A stretch of 64,000 nt of DNA from Chytridium lagenaria (taxonomy: Eukaryota; Chytridiomycota; Chytridiomycetes; Chytridiales; Chytridiaceae). Below, piece after piece: positions 17,545-30,822 of the stretch (position 1 is the stretch's first letter; each line of letters begins with the position of its first letter). The position numbers and the translations under genes are program-made. The notes beneath the pieces are model-generated. The model was not told the origin of the DNA. It saw nothing but the letters and a program-made list of their open reading frames with translations, and ran no database searches. The DNA is taken from contig JAHLKC010000031.1 in NCBI GenBank assembly GCA_025449115.1, positions 62,001 through 126,000 on the forward strand, read 5' to 3'.

Positions 17545-18543
17545 TCAAAATGAGGATGTGAAATTCTTGATCATGAGGTATCGATCAATGTACTCCGAGA
17601 GGCGATCTTCATAGTTCAACTCTTTACGGCAGCCCACAAGCCTCTGCAACCACCATGTCGATCTATCGCCACCACCAGTTTTTTCATATTGTCGACTCAA
17701 CACCTGAGGTTCTCCTTCAACATCAGTCGCTTTGATTCTCAGCAGTAAATATTATGTCATCGATACATGTAAAGTGGATAGTTGATTTTCTTTATTCTAC
17801 TCAATCCTTTTTCTTCATTACAAGACTCTGCAACCACCTCATTGTTCGCTTTAATGACATTGCCATTTTTCGTTTTTCTTGCCTCCAGACCGTCTTGCTG
17901 GTACGTCGCCTTGCGCCTCGCCTTGCCCCTCTTCACCTCCCATCTTATATGTTCTACTAATTAACTGATCGAGCGAGATGCGAGGTTCTTTTCTTCAGTC
18001 TTCTCCATCTTAGACTATACCGTCAATCTCGGTATTCTGAACCATCCGAGCCTTCATTTAGCGCTCTCGTGCTATCCTCTTTGCCGTCCACAAACGGCAA
18101 CATCTACTGGCTTCACATGTTGGTACTCTGTCTCTAAATCTCCACCAGAGCCCTTATCGTCATTAACGATATCGAGTGCCTCAATTTGGACGACTTCTTG
18201 GCACTGAAGATGTCGACGATCTTCTACTCACCGCATAACTATTTCGTCTACTTTTATCGTCACTTGACGCGATAGAGAAACCAGGTGCTAACAACGCTTC
18301 CGTATCACTCCCCCTGTTGCAGACACACGCTGAGGCGAAGGCGCTCTCACCGCGGGCTTGTCTTTCCTCCGCGTCACTTCCAAGCTCTTCTAACATTGAA
18401 CTATCTTTAAACACAGTGATGTTGTTGGTCGAGAGTGTTGACATGCTTGTTTCAACGATATCGATGCTATCAAGTCTTAGGTACCCGTACACATGTACTT
18501 TACACGAACCTTGGATTACATTGTCGGATCCCCGCTTGTTCAC
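17545..18543 (-). CDS. Ser-rich protein of unknown function (A), broken frame
   Basis: From a Met at 18543 a 120-codon frame carries acidic Ser-rich sequence and two basic clusters (KSRRNSYAVSRRSSTSS), then changes frame into EVVQIEALDIVNDDKG, which stays open to about 18070. A separate minus-strand stretch, about 17725-17545, reads QVLSRQYEKTGGGDRSTWWL and YEDRLSEYIDRYLMIKN before a stop, and is probably its last exon. RRxS sites match the consensus of basophilic kinases. I do not recognise a family. Start, exon borders and the joining of the two parts are uncertain. Confidence 0.35.
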
Positions 18544-19027
18544 GCATCAAACCATAAAGTCTCTGGCGAAAAAGAATCAAACACTCGCCAGATGGAAGAG
18601 ATGATGAGGGTCTTCCGATGGAGTTACGGGGGTTGTTGGGTCGTGAGAGTGGTGCTCCTGGTTATACTTCTATGCGAACATGAGGATGATGCTATAGATG
18701 AGTTGGATTTCATTATGGTTGAATCTCTGGCAATGCTTTTCGAGTTTCTTCTTGGCTTATCAATTTATCTATAAGCGGGGCTTCTACTGATAGGATGTTT
18801 GTAGTTTGCCGTGAGCTTGAAGTCCTGAAAATAGGTGCAGGCATTGAATGTCGGCGAGCTCTTAACTCTGCTTGCTTGATATGGTTTATCTTATTGGAAG
18901 CTACTAAATCGTATTAAAGAAATATTTTATCTCATTCATACCTGAAGTATGGCGCACTTTGAACGGGAAACCTAAGTTCATATTAAGTATATAATATATG
19001 ATGTATAATACCTTGTATATTCTTTAT
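18544..19027. other. Intergenic, no gene recognised
   Basis: Short open frames here are not protein-like on either strand. Confidence 0.35.
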
Positions 19028-21288
19028 TCATGTGCCCTTCAAAGCCGCCGCTGCCAATATCACAAATCGAGCTTCTTCCGCGTCTTTGTTTAATCGGTGT
19101 TCTATGACGGCCCCGTGTATAGTCACCATCGACGCAATCCGTAGACGAAGATTTCCGTGATCTATTCATATGTATTGCAGCTAAAGCAAATTCTGCTTTC
19201 CCTTTTCGTGACGTATACCGAATAACGTCGTCACAAAGATTACTGAATTAATAGAAGACCGTTTTCGACCACGAGCGCGATCTTGACATACTTCATCAGA
19301 CAAAGAAGCATTGCAGCTGTGGGCTGGTGAACCTATTGGTGTTGAGGGCTTTTTAAAAAGACCCACTTATCACGTTCTACGGAAAATAATACATCATTAC
19401 CCGGCTTTCTTTAGCAGAAACATTTGTGGAAAACACTCACGGCTAAGTCTGTAAGTACGATTGCGGCATCTTGATCCTCAGGCCTACACAAGATCATTAA
19501 CGTCCAAACCACAATCGGAGAAACCAATGGCCACATCAAAACGACTAACATCCAAAGACCAATCTTGGACGTATAGTCTTCCAACCGTCTCAAACAACAC
19601 AGTGTTTGGGGCCTCCACCACTTTCGACATGACACTGCAGTAAAGTTTTTCAAGGAGGCAGCGACGAGCCAAAGCAGCTTTTCATATTAAAAAAAAACGA
19701 CGGGAATAAAGGGAACCATCGATGTTTAATCAAGAGCAGCCAAGGAAATCAATGTGGGCTTGTAGACCGGTCTCACTTTTAATTTTATAATTAGGTTACA
19801 GATTTTCATTTCTGTAAATCGTAACCTAATTGGAATTTTCTAAAGAAGAGGGCCGATAGCCGGCTTTACTCCGTGACTTTTATTTATATGAAAAAGGAAG
19901 TCGGCACCACCACCTGTTTCGAACCGATAAGTTGTCCCCCTCCCCCGCCAACCAGACACAGATTAACATACGCGATATCGATGTCTGTTTGCCAGATCCG
20001 TCAAGAACAAAACGCAGATTATATTGTCCATGTAGAATGACGCTGAACATTCGTATGTGGTTTTTTTTCTCGACACTAGGGCGGTGTGAATCCCCGTATT
20101 CGTCTCCGGCGTTAAGTTGAATGTGCTGATAAACTGTCCGCGATCTTCTTTGACTGACCACTGTTTAACAGACGGTTCCAACTTTCCAACAAGTGGCTCT
20201 TCAAACTTCGGTGCATCACTGCCAGCACGCGCGGAGAAGACAGAGATGGAATCGTCAAACACGCTGTCAGAGGAAAAATCGCTGATGCTGTCGACATCTT
20301 CATAACATTGGGGAAGAGCTTGGAAGGTCTTATCATAGACGCTATTGAATATGATTTTATGGCTCATGTTGTGGTGCAGATCTTCAAGGCTGCCTTGATC
20401 CGGAGAATCGCATGTTTCTAGATGGTTTCAGAGGTATAGGTATCAGAGTTGGAAGACCAGGAGCGTGTTGAAGACAAAATGAAAGTGTGAGTGCTATTAT
20501 CGTCGGCGTTGTCGACATCCATCAACGCAGATTGCGCAAGTTTGGATAATTGCGTTCGCGCCGCCGTTGAAATCAACAATGGATTACCGACGCCGCCGAG
20601 CTGTGAAGCCGCTTTGTTCTTGTAAGTCATTGTTAACCTTGGAGAACATGTTGGAGGTTGGTATGCGCGCGCGACGTTTTCATGCGAGAAAGTTGAGCGT
20701 TTGTCGACGCCGCTGGAGGGCAGTAGTTTTAAAGGTTGTCTTGACGTGTCAGCAGAACGACTCGTGATGATCATTGCTTCCGTAGAGATCATCCGCTCAG
20801 AAGATAGAGAGTCAAAGAGTTTTGAAAGTGGGATCATATGATGCTGTCTTTCGCTTCTCTCATAATGCCCCCGACCCGGTAAATCCGAGATCCTCTCCAT
20901 CGACGCAAGGGCTCGAGCTTCGTCAATATCTTGATACAACTTCTTGATTGTGCCTACCACTGCATCAAGAGAAGAGTCTTTTGAACTTCCACTTCTCGAA
21001 GCTTGTGAGAATAAGTACGATTGGGTATCGAGACCCTGGAACGTCGTTGAAACGCTTCCAATGTCCTTGGTCTTAGTCTTGTTCTCAGGCAACGGCATTT
21101 TGAGGGTCGCAGACGGGGATGAAGGGAGCCGGCTGAAGTTGCTTCTGGCAAGTGACGGTTTGAGCCATTCTGAACGTTGTCGTTGGAGCAGTGTCGAAGT
21201 GGGAGTTTCTGAGTATGGAATAAGCTGCGTTTGCCTTGCGAAAGGACTGGTTCGAATTCTCCAGAAAGTGTTCTCAGGAGGTCTGTGA
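19028..21288 (-). CDS. Ser/Thr-rich protein of unknown function (B), several exons
   Basis: A protein-like frame begins upstream of 21100 (SEWLKPSLARSNFSRLPSSP) and runs into a 226-codon frame rich in Ser, Lys and Asp (21098-20418). Further exons follow at 20367-19963 (EDVDSISDFSSDSVFDDSIS, later KFEEPLVGKLEPSVKQW) and 19672-19411 (KVVEAPNTVLFETVGRLYV). A tail ends EEARFVILAAAALKG at TGA 19028-19030. Low hydrophobicity and high Ser content suggest a largely disordered protein. No catalytic motif is visible. It faces away from the similar plus-strand gene at 23423. Whether all the exons belong to one gene is not certain. Confidence 0.4.
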
Positions 21289-23422
21289 TGAAATTAGATT
21301 GTTATAGAGGCTTAAAAAAAAGAAGTTTTAGTTTACCTACGATGCCTCGATGATTTGGTATAGCTTTCTGCTTGTACCTAATTAACTAATTAATCATGGG
21401 TATGAGCAATAATGGCCGACGAATGTAAATCAAAAACCTACGTCACGTCCTTTAATAAGTAATCGTCTAAACTTTCTTGCAGCATAATTGTATTGGAAAT
21501 ACTCAAGATGATCTTTAAGCACGTCGATGATAGAAGGAAAGAGAAAGTGATCTGCGTTTTTAAAAAAAGATCGACTCAGTGGCGTCCAATCCGACGGGAC
21601 CTACCACTTGTGATCACCGTAGATCCTTGCTCAAAATTTAAGGATCGCCACGTTGTGAACTAATATTAGTTTAGCGCCTTGTGTGCGGCAACCAACGGAT
21701 TGCAATTAAGGGGTCTGGCTTATGTGAAAGACCAAAGATAATTCGCAATTGACAAAAGTTATTATAAAAAAACATATGCTTTTCGTGCCATCAGCTATGA
21801 GGGGTACTTGCACGAATCTGTGGCTTCGTTTGCTTTCCTCGTTTCCACAATATCCCGCAGTGATACCTCTCTAGAATATAATGTAACGGTAATAGCACAT
21901 ATAAAAAATAACTGTCAAACTTGCAGCAACCGCGGAAAGGCATAAAAACCATATGGTGTTTGGAGTGTGAGAGATAGACGCACTCTGATGGATGGCACTT
22001 CATGCTTTTGGTATAATGCGGAAAGCTGTCAACGTTTTGCAGCGATTTGCGATGTTCACATGCGGGAATGGCGGCTGGGTTTAGTCGTTAAAAAACTATC
22101 GGAGGAACGAGTAGAATGAATAGAGAGTAGTTCGGCAACATTACAACTTTACGAAACGTAGACATGGGAGAGGTTTAGGAAAGTCCACACTGTCAAGATA
22201 TCTTATGTGACCAAAAAAAAAAAGTCTACATTTCGTATCAGCCTTGTGGAGTTATTGCACATTTGCGCCGTCTGAAAAGACTGCAACCTTGGTTGCTTCC
22301 CGTTCTTGCACTGTATCCCCCGATAAAACCTTCCCGTCATCCACTCGCTCTGCCCGCTCCATCGCAACTATGTCGTTTGACTTTACATCAAAGCCGGCTT
22401 TTTCTCATGTTCCGGGTGGTTCAATTGCGGTCCATTTGCCTCATCGGGCGATATAGAATATATGAGTCGCCTCTGCCCAGAATTTGACGGGGGCTTTACC
22501 AATTTTGCCCCTGTCAACGCTGTGTCGCGCGCGGCCGCTGCTGAGAAAGTTGCGATGATGTGGCCATAGCCGTCAAACGGTCCCATCGCTGGGCCCTAGT
22601 CAGAGATGAGTGTCATCAAAATTGAATTGTTCAAGTTGCCCAGACGTACTTAAAACTTTTTCTGGGGGGCGGGTTGCAGCTCTGTATTATAATATGTGCA
22701 GTATATCGTAAAGAACAGCTGAAGTTGGATTACCAGCTGAACCCTAACCCGTGCTTATAACAAAGCGAATTTGCAACAGATCAATATTATTGCGTGTGCG
22801 TGTGAAGTTTGCATTTAATACATATACTAAAACATCAAGGCAAGCTATTCCTCAGCTCACTTATGGCCATGGCATTACATCTTTCCAATAATCTTTGCAA
22901 GTTATTTCACGCCGAATAGGTCAACGTCACGAAAGTGAAGACACAGGCGAACGGTAATCGTCAAGCAAGTGTATCGGAAGAAAAGACTGAAGTAGCCCAG
23001 CCTCCTTCTCACCTTGCTCTTCATATTAGTGACCGTACTTGAAGAAGCGGTCAGCAAGGAAGTCGAGAATATAAAAGAATGAATATTGTTCCGGGTGTTT
23101 TCCGTTCTTTCTTACGCCAATGTTACGGAAGTCGAATGAAATGAAGCAGGTGCTAATTAAATGGAGTTCCGAATGTTTGAGACCGTGAGTGACGAGGATG
23201 TAGGAAGTAGAATGGAAAAGGAGTGAAAGCGGCAGCTCATTAACGGAATTCCGGAAGTTTAAAAAGAGGCGTTCATAATCGACAGTTCCGAATGCAGTGT
23301 GCAAAAAAAACGACTCTGTACCATACATTATTATGCCCAATCCCGGTGGTCAGAATCCAAAAATAAAAATGATCAATTATACTTTTCGGTATATATGAAA
23401 GACTACGTGGAAAGCAAGAGAG
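21289..23422. other. Long divergent intergenic region
   Basis: About 2.1 kb between the divergent Ser-rich genes. It is AT-rich in parts, with short antiparallel open frames (for example minus 22586-22383) that I cannot support as genes. No RNA gene or mobile element is recognised. It probably contains both promoters. Confidence 0.4.
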
Positions 23423-26097
23423 ATGAATCCAGCCATGTCGACCGCACTCCAAGAATCTATCTTTGACTACGTGGATAAGATCGACTTTATTCCGTCATCA
23501 AAAATAAGCTATGCGTGAGTGTTTTGGTTTGTAAAATCAACTAATTAATATCAATGCCCATCATATAGTGATGTAATGGCTCTCGAACGAGGCCAGAGGG
23601 CCATCTCTCACCGCTAGCTCTTCTTCCTTTTCATCCACTGCGCATCGGTCAATATTACCACAGCTTTCTCCATCTGTATGTTCAAGCATAAATTGGGAGA
23701 AAAACTATACACGAGATGCGGCAGCTGAATCTCGTTCACGCCGTCGCAGCACAGACGCTACAAGATTCGATGATATAGAGCCTACTGATGGTACGCGGGG
23801 AAGCTTGAATTCTGTTGATTTAGAGGCTCGGTTAGCTATCTCGCCTTTGTGTCGACGGACTGTATGCGAACGGACATTATGGCGAAGTTTGAATGCTCCA
23901 GTATTAGCCTTGATCCCACATCAGTGACTTCTATATCGAGCAAAGGCTCCAGTAGATCCACATCTGCTCCTGTACAGCAGCTACCTGAAGAGACCACGCC
24001 ATCATTGGGACGTCAGAAAGCTGAGGAATGGAATTCGTCTCTTGGCCGTCGCCTTGCGAGAGTCTCTTCTGTCCTTGATCCTCCTGAACTTATCAGAAGT
24101 TTAAGCAAACGAGGCTCCGTCGAACGTCGGGGGAGTATGAAAAGTCAAAAAAGCAGCAAGAGCCATAAAAGCCAAAGCACGATGTCCTCAAAATCCTCCA
24201 GGAGTTCTATAAGCACCACTGGCAGCAGTCCAAAGGTGAAAGATTGTTGTTTTGCCATTTCATTATTCACTTATTATTTATAAAACTGTATTCTTTAAAC
24301 AGGAATGTAGTATGGAAGATTCTCACGCAAACTGTACTGCAGTGGCCGAATTAAACTCTCCCACTTACTCCGGTTTGGTCAAAGGTACCGGAAGCAATAG
24401 TAGCAGTGGAAGTTTCAGGCGTCAAAGACGACTGTCTACGGATAGTGCAAGAGCGTTTCCGCATCCTCCTCATCTCCCACGCATCGACAGTGCTGGATCA
24501 GGAGACGTCGAAGGATCTAAAGAACTCGGACCAACCGGTCATTCAAAATTAAACATCGTACTTTCTCCTGAAGACGTTGCAATATTGCCAGAACTAGTTC
24601 TTAATAGCGATTTACCATCTTCTCTTTTGCATAACGAAACAGAATCGCCCATATTAACGGATCCGTTTGTCGTCAACCATGCAGTCTCGAGATATCCACA
24701 AGACCTTCACCCTCATGAGGAACTTAATCCACATGGTACGAAGGAGGTTTCAACCAAGAAGCCCTTAATTGAACCTGAAATCATCAAATCTGCTTCTGAC
24801 ACGTCGCAGCATAGGTCAGAGAAAGATCAATTATGTTGCTTTGCGTTTCTCTTCAACCGGAAATCCCGCAATAAAGTATCTGGGTAATATGTTTCAGGAG
24901 TTGGAGGCGGAGGCTCGGCTGGTGCGAAGTGTTCTTGAAATTCCAATCATTTGAGAGTTTCTAGCTGGTGCCCAAAGATCTGCAAAGGATTATTAGACCA
25001 AGCCACATCGAAATCGTGAGAATAAACCCGATTTTGTTGGAAGACGATGCTCTGAATGCGATGGCTCATATTTTGCAGGAAGCCTTATCGGATTACCTCG
25101 ATAACCCAGATTTCGTGCCTGCTGGAAGCCGACCACTTAAAATCATTGAAGAAGTGATTCTCCCCAGGAGCAGACGCGGTCGTTTGAAGGGAATGTGGCT
25201 TCAAGGAGCAGATGTGGATCGTTTGAAGGGCATATAACTTCATATCCGTACTCCTCATCGACCCCACCATTTGAGAAGGGAGACTTTACTATGTTCGGTT
25301 GCGAGAAGCAACTTTGACCTCTCAAACGCTTCGCGATTATCGAAATGTTGATACCACTTCCGTTGCCACCAAATCTCGGAGGCATAGTACCGATGCATCA
25401 ATGACAGTCAGAGCAAAGAGGCATCAGCCTTCAACCCCAACAACAGCTGAAGTTGCGCACACTTTCTTCCAAATGCTATCTTCAGACCTTCTTACGCCTC
25501 AAGATCGAGCCTGGCTTAAAAGTTCAAAGGAGTCAGTTGGCATCGAAGAAGCGAATACAAATAAGTATAACGTAGACAGAGGTAATTCCAAGACATCCAC
25601 TGTATTTTAAATTGGACAGTCACTGTGAAAACCGAGCAATTAATCGATATAAACTCTCTGTTTTGCAAGGTAAAACCTTCGGACATATACTAATATTAAA
25701 GGCTTATCTTCAGGATTCAAAAACCACAATCGCATCATCACAAGCCAACGGCCTTAAAGCAAGTTCTTTATCACAGGTTCTTCGATCCCAGTCTTCTCTC
25801 GGCCAAAACAATAGCCGCTTCAGGAAATCGCGGCGATGCTCTGCGTTGCCTCGCATTGAAAGCGCTGGTTGGAATGAAGCCAAAGATTTATCACGCAAGT
25901 CGATTGAGCACAAAAAGCTTGATGGCCCATCACAACACTTTCTCTCGAGCCAGGATCTGAAGAACAGCAGCGTGCGGGATATCGCATTAAAGGACCTGAC
26001 ACAGGTGAACGAAGTGAAAAGGGTTAATGTGGAGACGAAATTTCATGAAGCTGCAGTCTGCTCTTGTTTTGGCTTTTGGAGATCTTTTAAGCACTAA
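23423..26097 (+). CDS. Ser-rich protein with two LPRI[DE]SAG motifs (C)
   Basis: It starts MNPAMSTALQESIFDYVDK at 23423, with an intron at about 23515-23569, then Ser-rich sequence with many basic RRxS sites (SRRRSTDATRF, KRGSVERRGSMKSQKSSKS). A second intron lies at about 24236-24300. The next part holds QRRLSTDSARAFPHPPHLPR followed by IDSAGSGDVEG (24420-24515), a segment LNIVLSPEDVAILPELV, and a helical region with LNAMAHILQEALSDYLDN (25050-25107). A later exon holds RRCSALPRIESAGWNEAKDL (25831-25890). It ends around 26095. Frame breaks occur near 23612, 24890 and 25250. The two LPRI[DE]SAG copies, one of which matches gene 29251-30822 closely, mark a shared family. I know no domain with this motif. 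Likely a phosphorylated, mostly disordered protein. Confidence 0.5.
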
Positions 26098-26564
26098 TGA
26101 GGTGAAGACGTTTGGTGTAGACTTATATAATAAATTTCTTCATTTCATAAAACACTTCTGTTATGATGAGCTCGTAAAATTAAACAACAGCAACAAGGTG
26201 GTCCTTACAACTCCATCTCTGTCCGAATACGTGCCTGTTCGGGGGAGTTTGCGGCATGCTGAATTTAATGGAGACGAAGCAAATACTATTAACCACCAAA
26301 ACATACACATGATACCATAAAAAGAAAATACAACACATCATAGACAAGATCACATGATAAATAAAACAATATAAAATCAAGGCCTGACAGATATCAACGT
26401 TTTACCTAATTAGTCAAATACCTTAAATACTATCTAACTGCTGCTTTAATGCCGAAAGTGATCATAAAGTTTGCCTGCCAACAAAGAGCAATAACTAATA
26501 TAGATACTGCTTTTTTGGGTAGCAGCCTGAAAGAAGTTACTGGAGAAAGGAATTAATACTTTAT
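26098..26564. other. Convergent 3' intergenic region
   Basis: AT-rich spacer between two converging genes, with no supported gene. Confidence 0.4.
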
Positions 26565-28708
26565 CTATCCTCTCAAAAATAGACCGCAGCGATAGGAGTA
26601 CAATAATATAAGCCATACACGTTTCCTCCCACACCATTTAAATATATCCATTAAGAGATTAAGTTTCCTCTTCTCGATGTAAGCTGAGAGCACAGGCTGT
26701 CTGGCTGACGGCACTCCACCTTCCGCAACCCAACTCTGCACAACCTCAGAAACCTTCCCAACACCCGTTTCGGCAGTATCTGACCCTACAATCTTCCCAC
26801 CTCCCACTGCCATTCCCGTAGACCTTATCAGATTCTCAATGGCGCCAGCGCCAAAATCCCCCCTGTTTCTCAGCTGTTCAACAGCATATGCAACGACGCC
26901 TTGTCCTTCTTCGCGGAACCAGCAGCAGAAGGTGTTCCCATGCTTTCCGAATAACCGGAGTTTTCGTCTTCTCAAAGGACTCAAATGCAGAGATCGCTTG
27001 GTCGTAGTTACCGAGGGCGTTATGAGCGGCATGTAGCATCGAAAGCGCGTCCAAGAACGACTTTCGGGTGTACGAGGGAAGCGGTGACGTCGGCGCCGGT
27101 GCCCGGGTAAGGGCACCCTTCTCAGAAGTGATTTCAGAGAGAATAGCAAGAGCCATTTCGGCGGCGACGCGAATGTCAGGACGGGCCGACCCTGAAGGTA
27201 GAATGGGGATATCGCGAGCCTCCTCTAATTCGCCAGACATTGTGACATCCGAAAGCAGGGCCCTGGCAAGAGTGACCGCGAACGCGGGCCTGTGAGAAGC
27301 CTTGATACCGGCATTTGCGAGCGTAGCGGCAACGGCCCCAGCATCCAGCGACGCATGAACGATTGATAGACCTCTCAAATGAATAGGCGTAAGGAATTGG
27401 AAAGATCCAATTTCTCCACTCCAATGTTAGCCTGTCTCCATGCAGATACTAGTTCCCCATTGAAGGCGAAGGCATCAACCGCAGCACTGATCATATCAGC
27501 ACCCTGCCTGAATCCACGAACGTTTTCATTTTTATTGAAAAACTTGACGGCATTGGTCAGATCTCCTGTTGCTCCGTAAACTCGAGTAAGATCGGCGAGG
27601 ATGCCTGTTGATGCTGGAAGTCCATCAGAACGGAGATTTCGAAATGTTTGAAGGGCATCGGCAGGTTGAAGGCGGAGAGCGAGCTCGTATCATTCCTTCA
27701 TATGATTCCGTCCCCACTGTGAGGCCAAGTCTAGCTATTTCTGTAAACCGCAGAAGCAACGAAAGAGAAGATTATCACAATAAGGTAAATATTTATAGAG
27801 TTAATCCGAAGAATTATTCGTTGCTTCAGGGGAAAGAAACTGAACAATAAAAAAATAAAACTCACCATTAAAGTACTTTGATGCTGCAGATATTTTCCTT
27901 TCATGCGCATACCCGTGAATAATACCAGCCAGCATACGCTCGTCCAGCTGAACATTCCTCTCCTTCATCAATTCAAACAAGGCCACGGCCTCATTTACTT
28001 TGCCCATGTAACCCAGGTTCTTAAAGAGGTGCATCACAGTATTTGAAGTCGCCGCAAGGGAATACTGTTCGATCATCTTCTCCAACAAAGCAGCTGCATG
28101 TTCAACTTTCCCATGTGTGGACAGTCCTCGAATCGCCGCGGTGAGCACGAGGGACATATCTTTCGGTGTACCCTTCAACTGCTTTGCTTTAAAGTAAAGC
28201 TCTGCAGCAGCTTTGTATCCCTCAGAGAGCTTTCCAGACTTAAACTTTGCACTGACGCCGGCGGTATTGGCTCGAATATAGGTCTCGGGATTCCTTGAAC
28301 CTCCTTCCAAAATCGTGGACACGCCCTGAGCTAATCTCAATGTTTCCGCTTCAACTGTAGTCTTCTGTTTTCCAAACTCAAATCGGTTGCTATGAAGCAG
28401 CATGAATGCCGAGGAGACCTCATTGGGAGCAAGTCGATTTAAGAGAAGGTCCGCTGTCCCCTTCTTTTCTTCATCCGACTTGAGGGTATTTAGGTCTTTC
28501 TGAATACACGCATCCAGGGATTTGTGCGCTGCCCAGGGATGACAAGCTTGATGGCATTCTGAAGGCAGATTACAGGATCGGCACCCTCGACGCTGGGATC
28601 CAGCAAATTCTTCGACGTATTGAGCTTTTTTCGTGGTGATGCCACTTTCCCTTTCGTTGCGTTAGCAGATGATACCGCGTCCGTCGTAGCGGATCGAAAG
28701 CGCATCAT
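26565..28708 (-). CDS. Pentatricopeptide repeat (PPR) protein, probably mitochondrial
   Basis: The start at 28708 gives a basic N-terminus (MMRFRSATTDAVSSANATKG) suited to mitochondrial import. The body is helical-repeat sequence. SNTVMHLFKNLGYMGKVNEA is followed by VALFELMKERNVQLDERMLA and GIIHGYAHERKISAASKYF, the 35-residue helix-turn-helix pattern of PPR proteins that bind organelle RNA. After an intron (about 27866-27700), further repeats read ADLTRVYGATGDLTNAVKFF and SFLDALSMLHAAHNALGNYD. The tail has GQGVVAYAVEQLRNRGDFGA and stops at 26565. Frame breaks include one at the G-run 28536-28538 and one near 26930. Its RNA target cannot be told from sequence. Confidence 0.7.
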
Positions 28709-29250
28709 CAGTACCGCGCATGTTCGGCAGCTGCTTATCGCATTGACGGATGGAGAGACCCAGGCATTTGACGGAAGAGAGAAAATTGAAAATAACTAAA
28801 TACCTTACGATGACAAGTTCAACCTAAACAGCCCAACAGCATCAACCTTTTTTAAATGGGGGCCTTTCATGAGACTCGGAATATTCGCCAGTAGTAATTT
28901 TGGTCATCCTGCAACTTGAGTGCAAAGTGCATGGCGATCTTAACAATCTTACTTCATGATCGACCTGGTAGTGTATGGGGGAAGAGTCATATTTGTGCTC
29001 ACTTACAAAAGCCAATTGATGCGAATGTGAAGTTTAATGTCTTCCTGCTAGTCATTGTTTTCTTAAGGTGAACCATTGTTTTCGGTGGGAGGGCTGGAAA
29101 TATCCAATCAACCTCGACAGTGGATCAAAACCCGCGGAAATGAGAGGAGGCCATTTCCAAATACGGAATGGGCATACGGTGTTTGAGTTCCGTAGGGTTG
29201 ATGCCAATACTTTCGCCTCCGCGTCGGATTCGGTCTAGAACGTAATCATA
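28709..29250. other. Divergent intergenic region, PPR gene / Ser-rich gene D
   Basis: About 540 bp with no supported gene; it must hold both promoters. Confidence 0.4.
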
Positions 29251-30822
29251 ATGGACTCTGCATTGGCAACTTGTAACGACGAGAGGCCGTCGCTTCACCC
29301 TTCCCAAAGTAAGTATAACTTCCTGCACAGCTTACCTTTCATGTTACGCTGTTCCTCACATTCTTCCAGAAATGTTATCCACTCAAATCTCTTGCATTCT
29401 ACTCAATGTGGATATGATGGACCGCCACCGTAAGTGATGTTGAAGTCTTGGAGTCTTTGTCTCTCTACATAATTTAATTTTGTTTTCTTGAAGAAACTTC
29501 AACCCGCGTCGTAGGTCAAGCCTGCCCGAGGTCAAACGCTTTGCGCCTAGTCAAGATCAGGCTGTTCTTAGTCGCCCTGGACTAGTTCCAGCCACTGCAA
29601 AGTAAGTTAATGGATTCTGCGCCTACTTATTGCTGCAATAAGAGCAATGAGGTCGAGTCGTCACTCTGTATTCGGGGAGTTTGCAACGACAATCGCGTCT
29701 AAGTTAGGGCATAAAGCCAGTAGCAGTGATATACCGACCGGGAAAAACCTCACTGCTAGTTATATCAACTTCGGAAGGAAGTGTAGAAACTCAGGCCGAC
29801 CCCGTTTCGGATGGGTTGAATATGCTCCCCAAGCCGTCGTCGATGGCTATCGATAATACATCTGAGCTGCCAAAGCTTGCCACAGAGGAAGTGATACCTT
29901 ATGCAGCTCTCAAGCGCCGGTCAAGTGTACCCGGTGCGAGGGATATGCACTTAGTGAAGGAGATTGATGCTCACAGGCTTGAACGAGTCCCTGCAAGTGC
30001 AAGGTACGTCTCCTAAAGTTTGTTGGAAAACAAAAGTATTTGCGTCTAACTTCTTATTTTCAGAGATTTTCGATCAAGCAGGTCATCATTTCTATCTGAG
30101 GTAGCCGCAAGCATCGCATCCAACATGACACTTCGAAAAAGGAGCTCTGATAGAATGATGTCACCAAAGAGCTCGACATATATGACGAATTCAGAATGCG
30201 CGATTAACACGGAGCAATGCGTGAAAGTGATTTCAACCTTGAAGGAACCGAACGCAACTTTATTTACTCCAGATTACACGCCAGACGATGCTATCAGAGC
30301 TTTAAAAATCTACGGAACGGTGCGGAGAGGAAGCGGAAGCAAAGGCGTGGAAATAGTGCGACAGTCATTGCACAGTGACTCTGATCCATCCGACAGGGCC
30401 GAAGAAATTAAGCGAACCACCACTATCAAAATGTCAAAACCATCGGCATGTCCTCGTCGCTTCACGGCCCTTCCTAGGATTGATAGCGCGGGATTTAATG
30501 ATTCCGGCGATCTACGTAAAATTGTATTGGCTGGAGCTCTTTCAGTCACGGGCAGCCATCTTCTTTAGGAAGCCATGTGCAGAGGCATCTTGATGATCAT
30601 GATACATGTTCGAACTTTTTAAAGGATGACGATTTTGGTGAAGGTACTCTGGTACGGCTTGAGGGATCATCGGGAAAAACGCGGGAAGTTAATTTGGATT
30701 CTCAAATGCGTGTTAATGAGACTGAAAACAGAAGTGGAAGGTTGCTCTTGCGAAGCTGTTTAATGGGAAAAAACTCAAGCTCTTTGTTACCGCAAAGCGC
30801 ATATAACAATGAGCTAGACTGA
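29251..30822 (+). CDS. Ser-rich protein with LPRIDSAG motif (D), paralogue of C
   Basis: It starts MDSALATCNDERPSLHPSQ at 29251, followed by short exons with introns at about 29311-29371, 29430-29493 and 29600-29645. Basic/Ser motifs recur: NPRRRSSLPEVKRFAP and LKRRSSVPGARDMH. The last large exon (from about 30064) has YTPDDAIRALKIYGTVRRGS and then RRFTALPRIDSAGFNDSGDL (30451-30510), nearly the same as the motif at 25831-25890 in gene C. After a one-base break near 30540 it continues to a stop at 30820-30822. No enzyme motif, membrane segment or signal peptide is visible. Shared motif, strand and proximity support origin by local duplication. Confidence 0.5.

Follow-up and report, generated by a model that had tools for sequence, protein, structure and literature searches.

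The window analysed here is a 64,000-nucleotide stretch of the Chytridium lagenaria genome (contig C31, positions 62001-126000; the assembly comprises 41.9 Mb in 356 contigs). Between its positions 23423 and 30822 lie neighbouring serine-rich genes, A, B and C, that carry versions of a short block of the form RRx[ST]ALPRI[DE]SAG, and a further relative, gene D, is found on contig C60, with which most of the window is colinear. The question raised by this locus is whether the block is a working element of a protein family or a likeness left by chance or by duplication. On the strength of alignments, we regard as real an unnamed family at the level of the Chytridiaceae with a strongly kept short block. 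Since the block is shared by a relative from a second fungal genus, it probably functions as a docking or switch site.

This relative is P0006 (HDU96_008708) of Phlyctochytrium bullatum, retrieved with an E-value of 0.017 by a four-row profile search that scored the 7995 candidates with the most words in common. C. lagenaria and P. bullatum are both Chytridiaceae and belong to different genera. The preliminary description of the locus stood or fell with the presence of the motif in some other gene or genome, and P0006 has the block. The protein of gene C (P0003) and P0006 align colinearly, with 33% identity over 251 columns and an E-value of 1e-19 for the pair. They have in common, in one order, RRxS[ST] modules, VPxxAR..R..R, the block and SNFLxxxDF. 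For instance, RRRSTLP with LVPSTARDLRPGR in P0006 aligns to KRRSSVP with VPASARDFRSSR in gene C, the block RKFSALPRIDSAG to RRFTALPRIDSAG, and SNFLEAEDF to SNFLKDDDF. Several blocks in one order place gene C in the same family as HDU96_008708, which, of the two genes compared on their own (A and C), holds for C only. Two VPxxA[RK]..R..R modules occur in each protein (window 29507 and 29912; P0006 residues 45-81 and 200-238), and RRxS followed by VPxxA[RK]..R..R is a second unnamed module of gene C and its orthologue.

Over 407 aligned columns the two proteins share 129 identities (32%), and the stretch best kept between them is the block, the conservation of which had been said to stand out. 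The best 15-residue window (12 identities) sits there, a value reached by 2.3% of 5000 column shuffles; ALPRIDSAG is the longest unchanged run, with nine residues against four for the next, and 0.9% of 5000 column shuffles reach nine. Downstream, the C60 copy of gene C reads from the block to the tail in one frame, its tail KWKVALAKLFNGKNFKLF matches KGKTSLLNFFKGGKLKLF of P. bullatum, and the part after the SNFL patch resembles the P. bullatum protein with a p value of 0.009. The window copy drops this frame near 30535 and 30729, and the C60 copy is broken farther upstream, so that neither copy is clean. As read from the alignments, the arrangement of gene C and P0006 is one of repeated RRxS[ST] modules with VPxxA[RK]..R..R, the block, an [NH]FLxxxD[FL] patch and a basic-hydrophobic tail. 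The patch recurs as HFLSSQDL in gene B; gene D has NILFDPNI, and nothing in gene A matches the patch form. The shuffle p values of the patch (0.003-0.011) are optimistic, because the form was chosen after the sequences had been seen.

Within the cluster, the block of gene B lies exactly where the preliminary description had put it and that of gene C is present four bases downstream of the 30451-30510 given there; the third, looser copy was also found. The copies at 24474 and 25831, which had been assigned to one gene, most likely belong to separate genes, since A and B each end in a tail and a stop; the first frame closes with a Cys tail and a stop codon (24885-24887) that it has in common with C60. 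Gene D, located on C60 between gene B and a pentatricopeptide repeat (PPR) gene, carries MPRIDSGD and a tail, CCFIWRKAKSNKKNSS, and changes frame. It is absent from the window (26284-26373 versus about 162.35-163.95 kb of C60) and represents a presence-absence difference between near copies. LPRI[DE]SAG is present in all of A, B, C and P0006 and not in D, and the core common to A, B, C, D and P0006 is PRI[DE]S; the C60 copy of B has PRLES.

The blocks of B and C align with a score of 68, which none of 200 shuffles reached (mean 33.7, maximum 50). Downstream of LPRI[DE]SA, similarity between A and D extends into the tail (p 0.001), and that between B and C takes in the final residues of the 20-residue block (p 0.015), both values being uncorrected for 10 pairs; A-B, A-C, B-D and C-D showed nothing beyond shuffles there. 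The last exon of gene A matches P0006 at the block alone (E 0.012). As the mutual resemblance of A, B, C and D is limited to short patches, the duplication that produced them must be old.

A DNA pattern for LPRIDSAG had four matches in the whole genome, and its reversed control had none. A looser pattern, which admitted D or E, relaxed the last two residues and allowed at most one mismatch, gave 23 matches versus 14 for the controls. All five perfect matches fall inside the cluster or its C60 copy, as do two of the 18 one-mismatch matches (gene D and the C60 copy of B); two of the other 16 were read. One of them, on contig C59, was discarded, as it lies in no convincing open frame. The other, L043 (C82:74263), lies in a long Ser-rich open frame, where it reads LPRIHSAENL, and may be either a chance match or a remote relative. 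Genome protein searches, for which the queries were pieces of B, A, C, P0006 and D and consisted mainly of single exons or of frames joined together, returned only the cluster and its C60 copy among the best candidates, which alone were scored; gene C as a query reached gene B weakly (E 0.08). Searches of proteins of other species with A, and with the block region of C (four candidates), returned C. lagenaria alone; P. bullatum was reached by the four-row profile only, and with 7995 candidates scored there these results do not demonstrate absence from further species.

The statement that no named domain covers the block is borne out. Pfam-A gave no family for any of five proteins at E up to 10, no Pfam family was found for six open frames of A, B, C and the neighbouring Ser-rich genes, and none for all four of those from A, B and C at E up to 1. 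NCBIfam had none for four of the five proteins and, for P0006, a CptA match far under the cut-off (12.3 versus 900 bits). PDB searches by sequence with the block of B and with P0006 found nothing, and neither the strings ALPRIDSAG and LPRIDSAG nor the entry prefixes BC829DRAFT and HDU96 were found in the literature searched. Parts of the family are represented in databases by unnamed hypothetical proteins (BC829DRAFT_389983, _396386, _244795 and _389997 from C. lagenaria, and HDU96_008708 from P. bullatum).

The Ser-rich genes at 17545-18543 and 19028-21288 had been suggested as distant members, but six-frame pattern scans detected neither the block nor a Cys tail there. Three minus-strand frames, S1 (18184-18546), S2 (20421-21293) and S3 (19966-20427), gave nothing convincing in 12 pairings with A-D: the best, A-S3 (p 0.024, uncorrected), lies away from the block, and those touching the block (A-S2, C-S2 and C-S3) have p values of 0.27-0.69. 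S1 is enriched in RRxS-type sites (three seen, 0.40 expected, p 0.008) and lacks the block; the preliminary description was right about its look, which is not by itself enough for membership. Of the lineage-specific disordered family made by local duplication that had been envisaged, the cluster at one locus and the likely disorder stand, and the two additional Ser-rich genes are not supported.

Comparison of the two near copies also points, with small numbers, to constraint on the block. Pooled over exons 3-4 of A, the last exon of B and the C exon, with gapped or stop-containing codons dropped, C31 and C60 differ within the block by three non-synonymous changes per 142 sites and four synonymous changes per 47, and outside it by 66 per 1162 and 38 per 344, respectively. 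In gene A, positions 24459-24525 show no non-synonymous and one synonymous change.

We tentatively propose that A, B, C and D are a Chytridiaceae family of membrane-tethered disordered phospho-adaptors, in which RRx[ST] sites switch the binding of a 14-3-3-like reader; we hold this to be quite possible, though short of probable. Gene C, which has an orthologue in another genus, would be the older member, and A, B and D its diverged local relatives. The C-terminal tail, basic-hydrophobic in C and Cys-aromatic-basic in A, B and D, may act as a leash to the membrane. Sites of the Ser-rich arm would be phosphorylated by a basophilic kinase of the PKA/AGC type, and the phosphorylated sites in repeated RRxS[ST]xP modules would bring in a phospho-reader, of which 14-3-3 is the simplest candidate. 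The RRx[ST]ALPRI[DE]SAG block would be the main contact, combining a phospho-site with a fixed docking segment. A bolder form of the proposal, in which a family of Chytridiaceae-specific membrane-tethered disordered adaptors is defined by RRx[ST]ALPRI[DE]SAG as a new phospho-gated docking motif, bound by a domain not yet known as a reader of such motifs, seems to us unlikely.

The distribution of Arg-directed sites agrees with this proposal in part. The flanks had been described as full of RRxS sites, which is true of A (five [RK]Rx[ST] sites versus 0.92 expected, overlapping sites included) and C (eight versus 1.17) but not of B (two versus 0.76) or D (one versus 0.49). Similarly, R[RK].[ST] is enriched in A (four versus 0.88 expected), C (six versus 1.20) and P0006 (six versus 0.96). 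The PKA-type RRx[ST] sites enriched in A, C and P0006 are matches to a consensus only. B, C and P0006 have RRx[ST] or RKx[ST] one residue ahead of the core. As a side observation, variants of the form RRxSTD[AS] (RRRSTDATRF, RRLSTDSARAF and RRHSTDASM) are common to exons 2 and 4 of A and the first open frame of B, and are perhaps the A/B form of the gene C module.

Several observations weigh against membrane-tethered phospho-adaptors. B and D are not enriched in RRx[ST]-type sites, the D block is not preceded by RRx[ST] in its open frame, and the RRLS of gene A ends 12 residues before LPRI. None of the proteins has a significant excess of Rxx[ST]xP (C two, p 0.073; P0006 two, p 0.099; A one, p 0.40; B and D none), and the block has Pro at +3 rather than at the +2 of the 14-3-3 form. 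The A-C block score of 44 lies within shuffles, 28 of 200 reaching it, and the case for this match rests on the exact 8-mer LPRIDSAG plus its place rather than on the score. All three non-synonymous block changes between copies fall in gene B, whose block and flanks evolve at about the same rate (dN/dS, the ratio of non-synonymous to synonymous change, 0.94 and 0.90). Homology of the A/B/D tails to the C tail is not demonstrable. The proteins are likely disordered, as AlphaFold2 predicted no fold for the A exon or P0006 (mean predicted local distance difference test, pLDDT, 47 and 43), but these low values are weak proof of disorder because low confidence is expected of two-row alignments, and one better helix was predicted in P0006 (277-295).

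Some of these points suit an alternative in which the block serves as a short linear motif that docks one folded partner constitutively, the adjacent RRxS merely tuning the contact or being irrelevant to it. The common core is PRI[DE]S and not RRxS, D and A lack an RRxS directly before it, and the longest run kept across genera is ALPRIDSAG. The basic site one residue ahead of the core in B, C and P0006, and the enrichment of such sites in A, C and P0006, argue the other way, and we consider constitutive docking possible though on the doubtful side.

A scenario in which A, B and D are duplicates of C in decay, with the block kept only through recent duplication or gene conversion and C alone functional, is quite unlikely. 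This would account for the in-frame TAG in the C60 copy of B, for the presence of D on one copy only and in a changing frame, and for the dN/dS near 0.9 of the last exon of B, block included. However, A, B, C and D are alike in short patches only, and dN/dS between copies is 0.18 in exon 3 of A and 0.55 in exon 4 outside the block. Moreover, single-base indels are frequent in the PPR gene too, so that the frame breaks in D, in C and in the C60 copy of B may be assembly noise and are not proof of pseudogenes. Arg-rich modules and a basic tail serving nucleic-acid or nuclear binding, with the block as a regulated localisation signal, are very improbable: RR-rich modules with a Lys/Arg-rich tail are also typical of nuclear proteins, but a membrane would better suit the tails of A, B and D, in which Cys and aromatic residues precede the basic stretch, and the hydrophobic-basic tail of C.

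We regard the family as new but of a familiar type, rather than as a novel sort of system. Among known classes, the Cys-aromatic-basic ends of A, B and D resemble C-terminally palmitoylated or polybasic membrane tails; they differ in having no CaaX box, the tails of C (in the C60 reading) and P. bullatum have no Cys, and acylation is putative. The hydrophobic residues of mitogen-activated protein kinase (MAPK) docking motifs take an alternating form, whereas those of the block read L-P-R-I. Likeness to these basic-hydrophobic motifs, as outlined in PMC8786283, lies in the two basic residues, the short linker and the hydrophobics. The same paper gives LxxIxE as the docking motif of PP2A-B56, with which LPRI[DE]S (A, B, C and P0006; MPRIDS in D) shares the spacing of L and I; the sixth position is Ser instead of Glu in A, B, C, D and P0006, and the block falls outside that definition (PMC8786283). 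It also gives Rxx[pS/pT]xP as a form of 14-3-3 clients (PMC8786283). Arg-directed Ser/Thr sites in disordered arms resemble such clients, and RRSSLP and RRSSVP of C and RRSTLP of P. bullatum fit the form as set out there (PMC8786283). The family would be a candidate client that differs in two respects: the shared block has Pro at +3, and the number of such sites does not exceed shuffles.

Because alignments fail, annotation of disordered proteins from early-diverging fungi is difficult. The second genus provides an anchor, as a nine-residue run and ordered patches survive at 32% overall identity. The comparison joins five "hypothetical protein" entries into one family and names residues that can be tested in a group with little cell biology. 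The coordinates of the features are collected in Table 1.

Table 1 Features of genes A, B and C in the window (position 1 is the first letter of the stretch)
Feature	Position	Strand	Remarks
Gene A	23423..24887	+	Probable exons 23423-23514, 23618-23830, 23908-24235 and 24303-24887; 405 amino acids as modelled
Gene A block PPHLPRIDSAGSGDVEG	24465..24515	+	LPRIDSAG at 24474-24497
Gene A C-terminal tail LCCFAFLFNRKSRNKVSG	24831..24884	+	Cys, aromatic, basic; kept in C60 copy; aligned with B and D tails
Gene B	25275..26097	+	At least 2 exons, in open frames 25275-25610 and 25576-26097; provisional start and splice sites
Gene B block RRCSALPRIESAGWNEAKDL	25831..25890	+	C60 copy reads PRCSALPRLESAGWNEAEDL
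Gene B second patch HFLSSQDL	25936..25959	+	15 residues after block
Gene B C-terminal tail CSCFGFWRSFKH and stop	26059..26097	+	C60 copy CCCCFGFRKSFKQ
Gene C	29251..30822	+	NCBI BC829DRAFT_389997, P0003, 429 amino acids; orthologue P0006 in P. bullatum
Gene C RRRSSLP module	29507..29527	+	Followed by VPATAKAMRSSR in P0003
Gene C KRRSSVP module	29912..29932	+	Followed by VPASARDFRSSR across next intron
Gene C block RRFTALPRIDSAGFNDSGDL	30455..30514	+	P. bullatum counterpart RKFSALPRIDSAGSAASSDL
Gene C second patch NFLKDDDF	30613..30636	+	P. bullatum NFLEAEDF
Gene C C-terminal tail region	30732..30800	+	C60 reads KWKVALAKLFNGKNFKLFLTTKR, in frame with block and P. bullatum-like; window copy one base out of step

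NCBI models P0001 and P0002 overlap most of exons 1-3 of gene A, with different splice choices, and, on C60, P0005 spans the greater part of the final exon of gene A, whose copy there is split into two predictions. The join of exons 3 and 4 and the treatment of the stretch near 23831-23907 are our reading of the gene. Exact gene models and pseudogene calls are unsafe in general, because single-base indels separate the two copies. Between C31 and C60, these account for 8 of 21 indels around gene A (2.2 kb), 28 of 39 around gene C (2.0 kb) and 16 of 23 in the neighbouring PPR gene (2.2 kb), a frequency that we read, at least in part, as low consensus quality.

Pieces of at least 100 bases align between the window and C60 at about 67-93% identity; colinear pieces are lacking at about 30.8-34.3 and 37.8-43.1 kb, and repeats occur near 58-60 kb. 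Duplication of the whole assembly was considered as the source of the two copies and rejected. Fungi have three genes for the largest RNA polymerase subunits and fourteen proteasome genes, and the corresponding families had matches on three and 13 contigs, respectively. These counts are lower bounds, and they suggest a near single-copy state for the assembly overall. C31 and C60 may thus represent either an uncollapsed diverged copy or a segmental duplication. At window positions 22667-22798, the C60 copy is about 7 kb longer. The PPR-repeat gene (26565-28661, minus strand) is spread over several frames and shows many single-base differences from C60, which suggests indel noise in the assembly.

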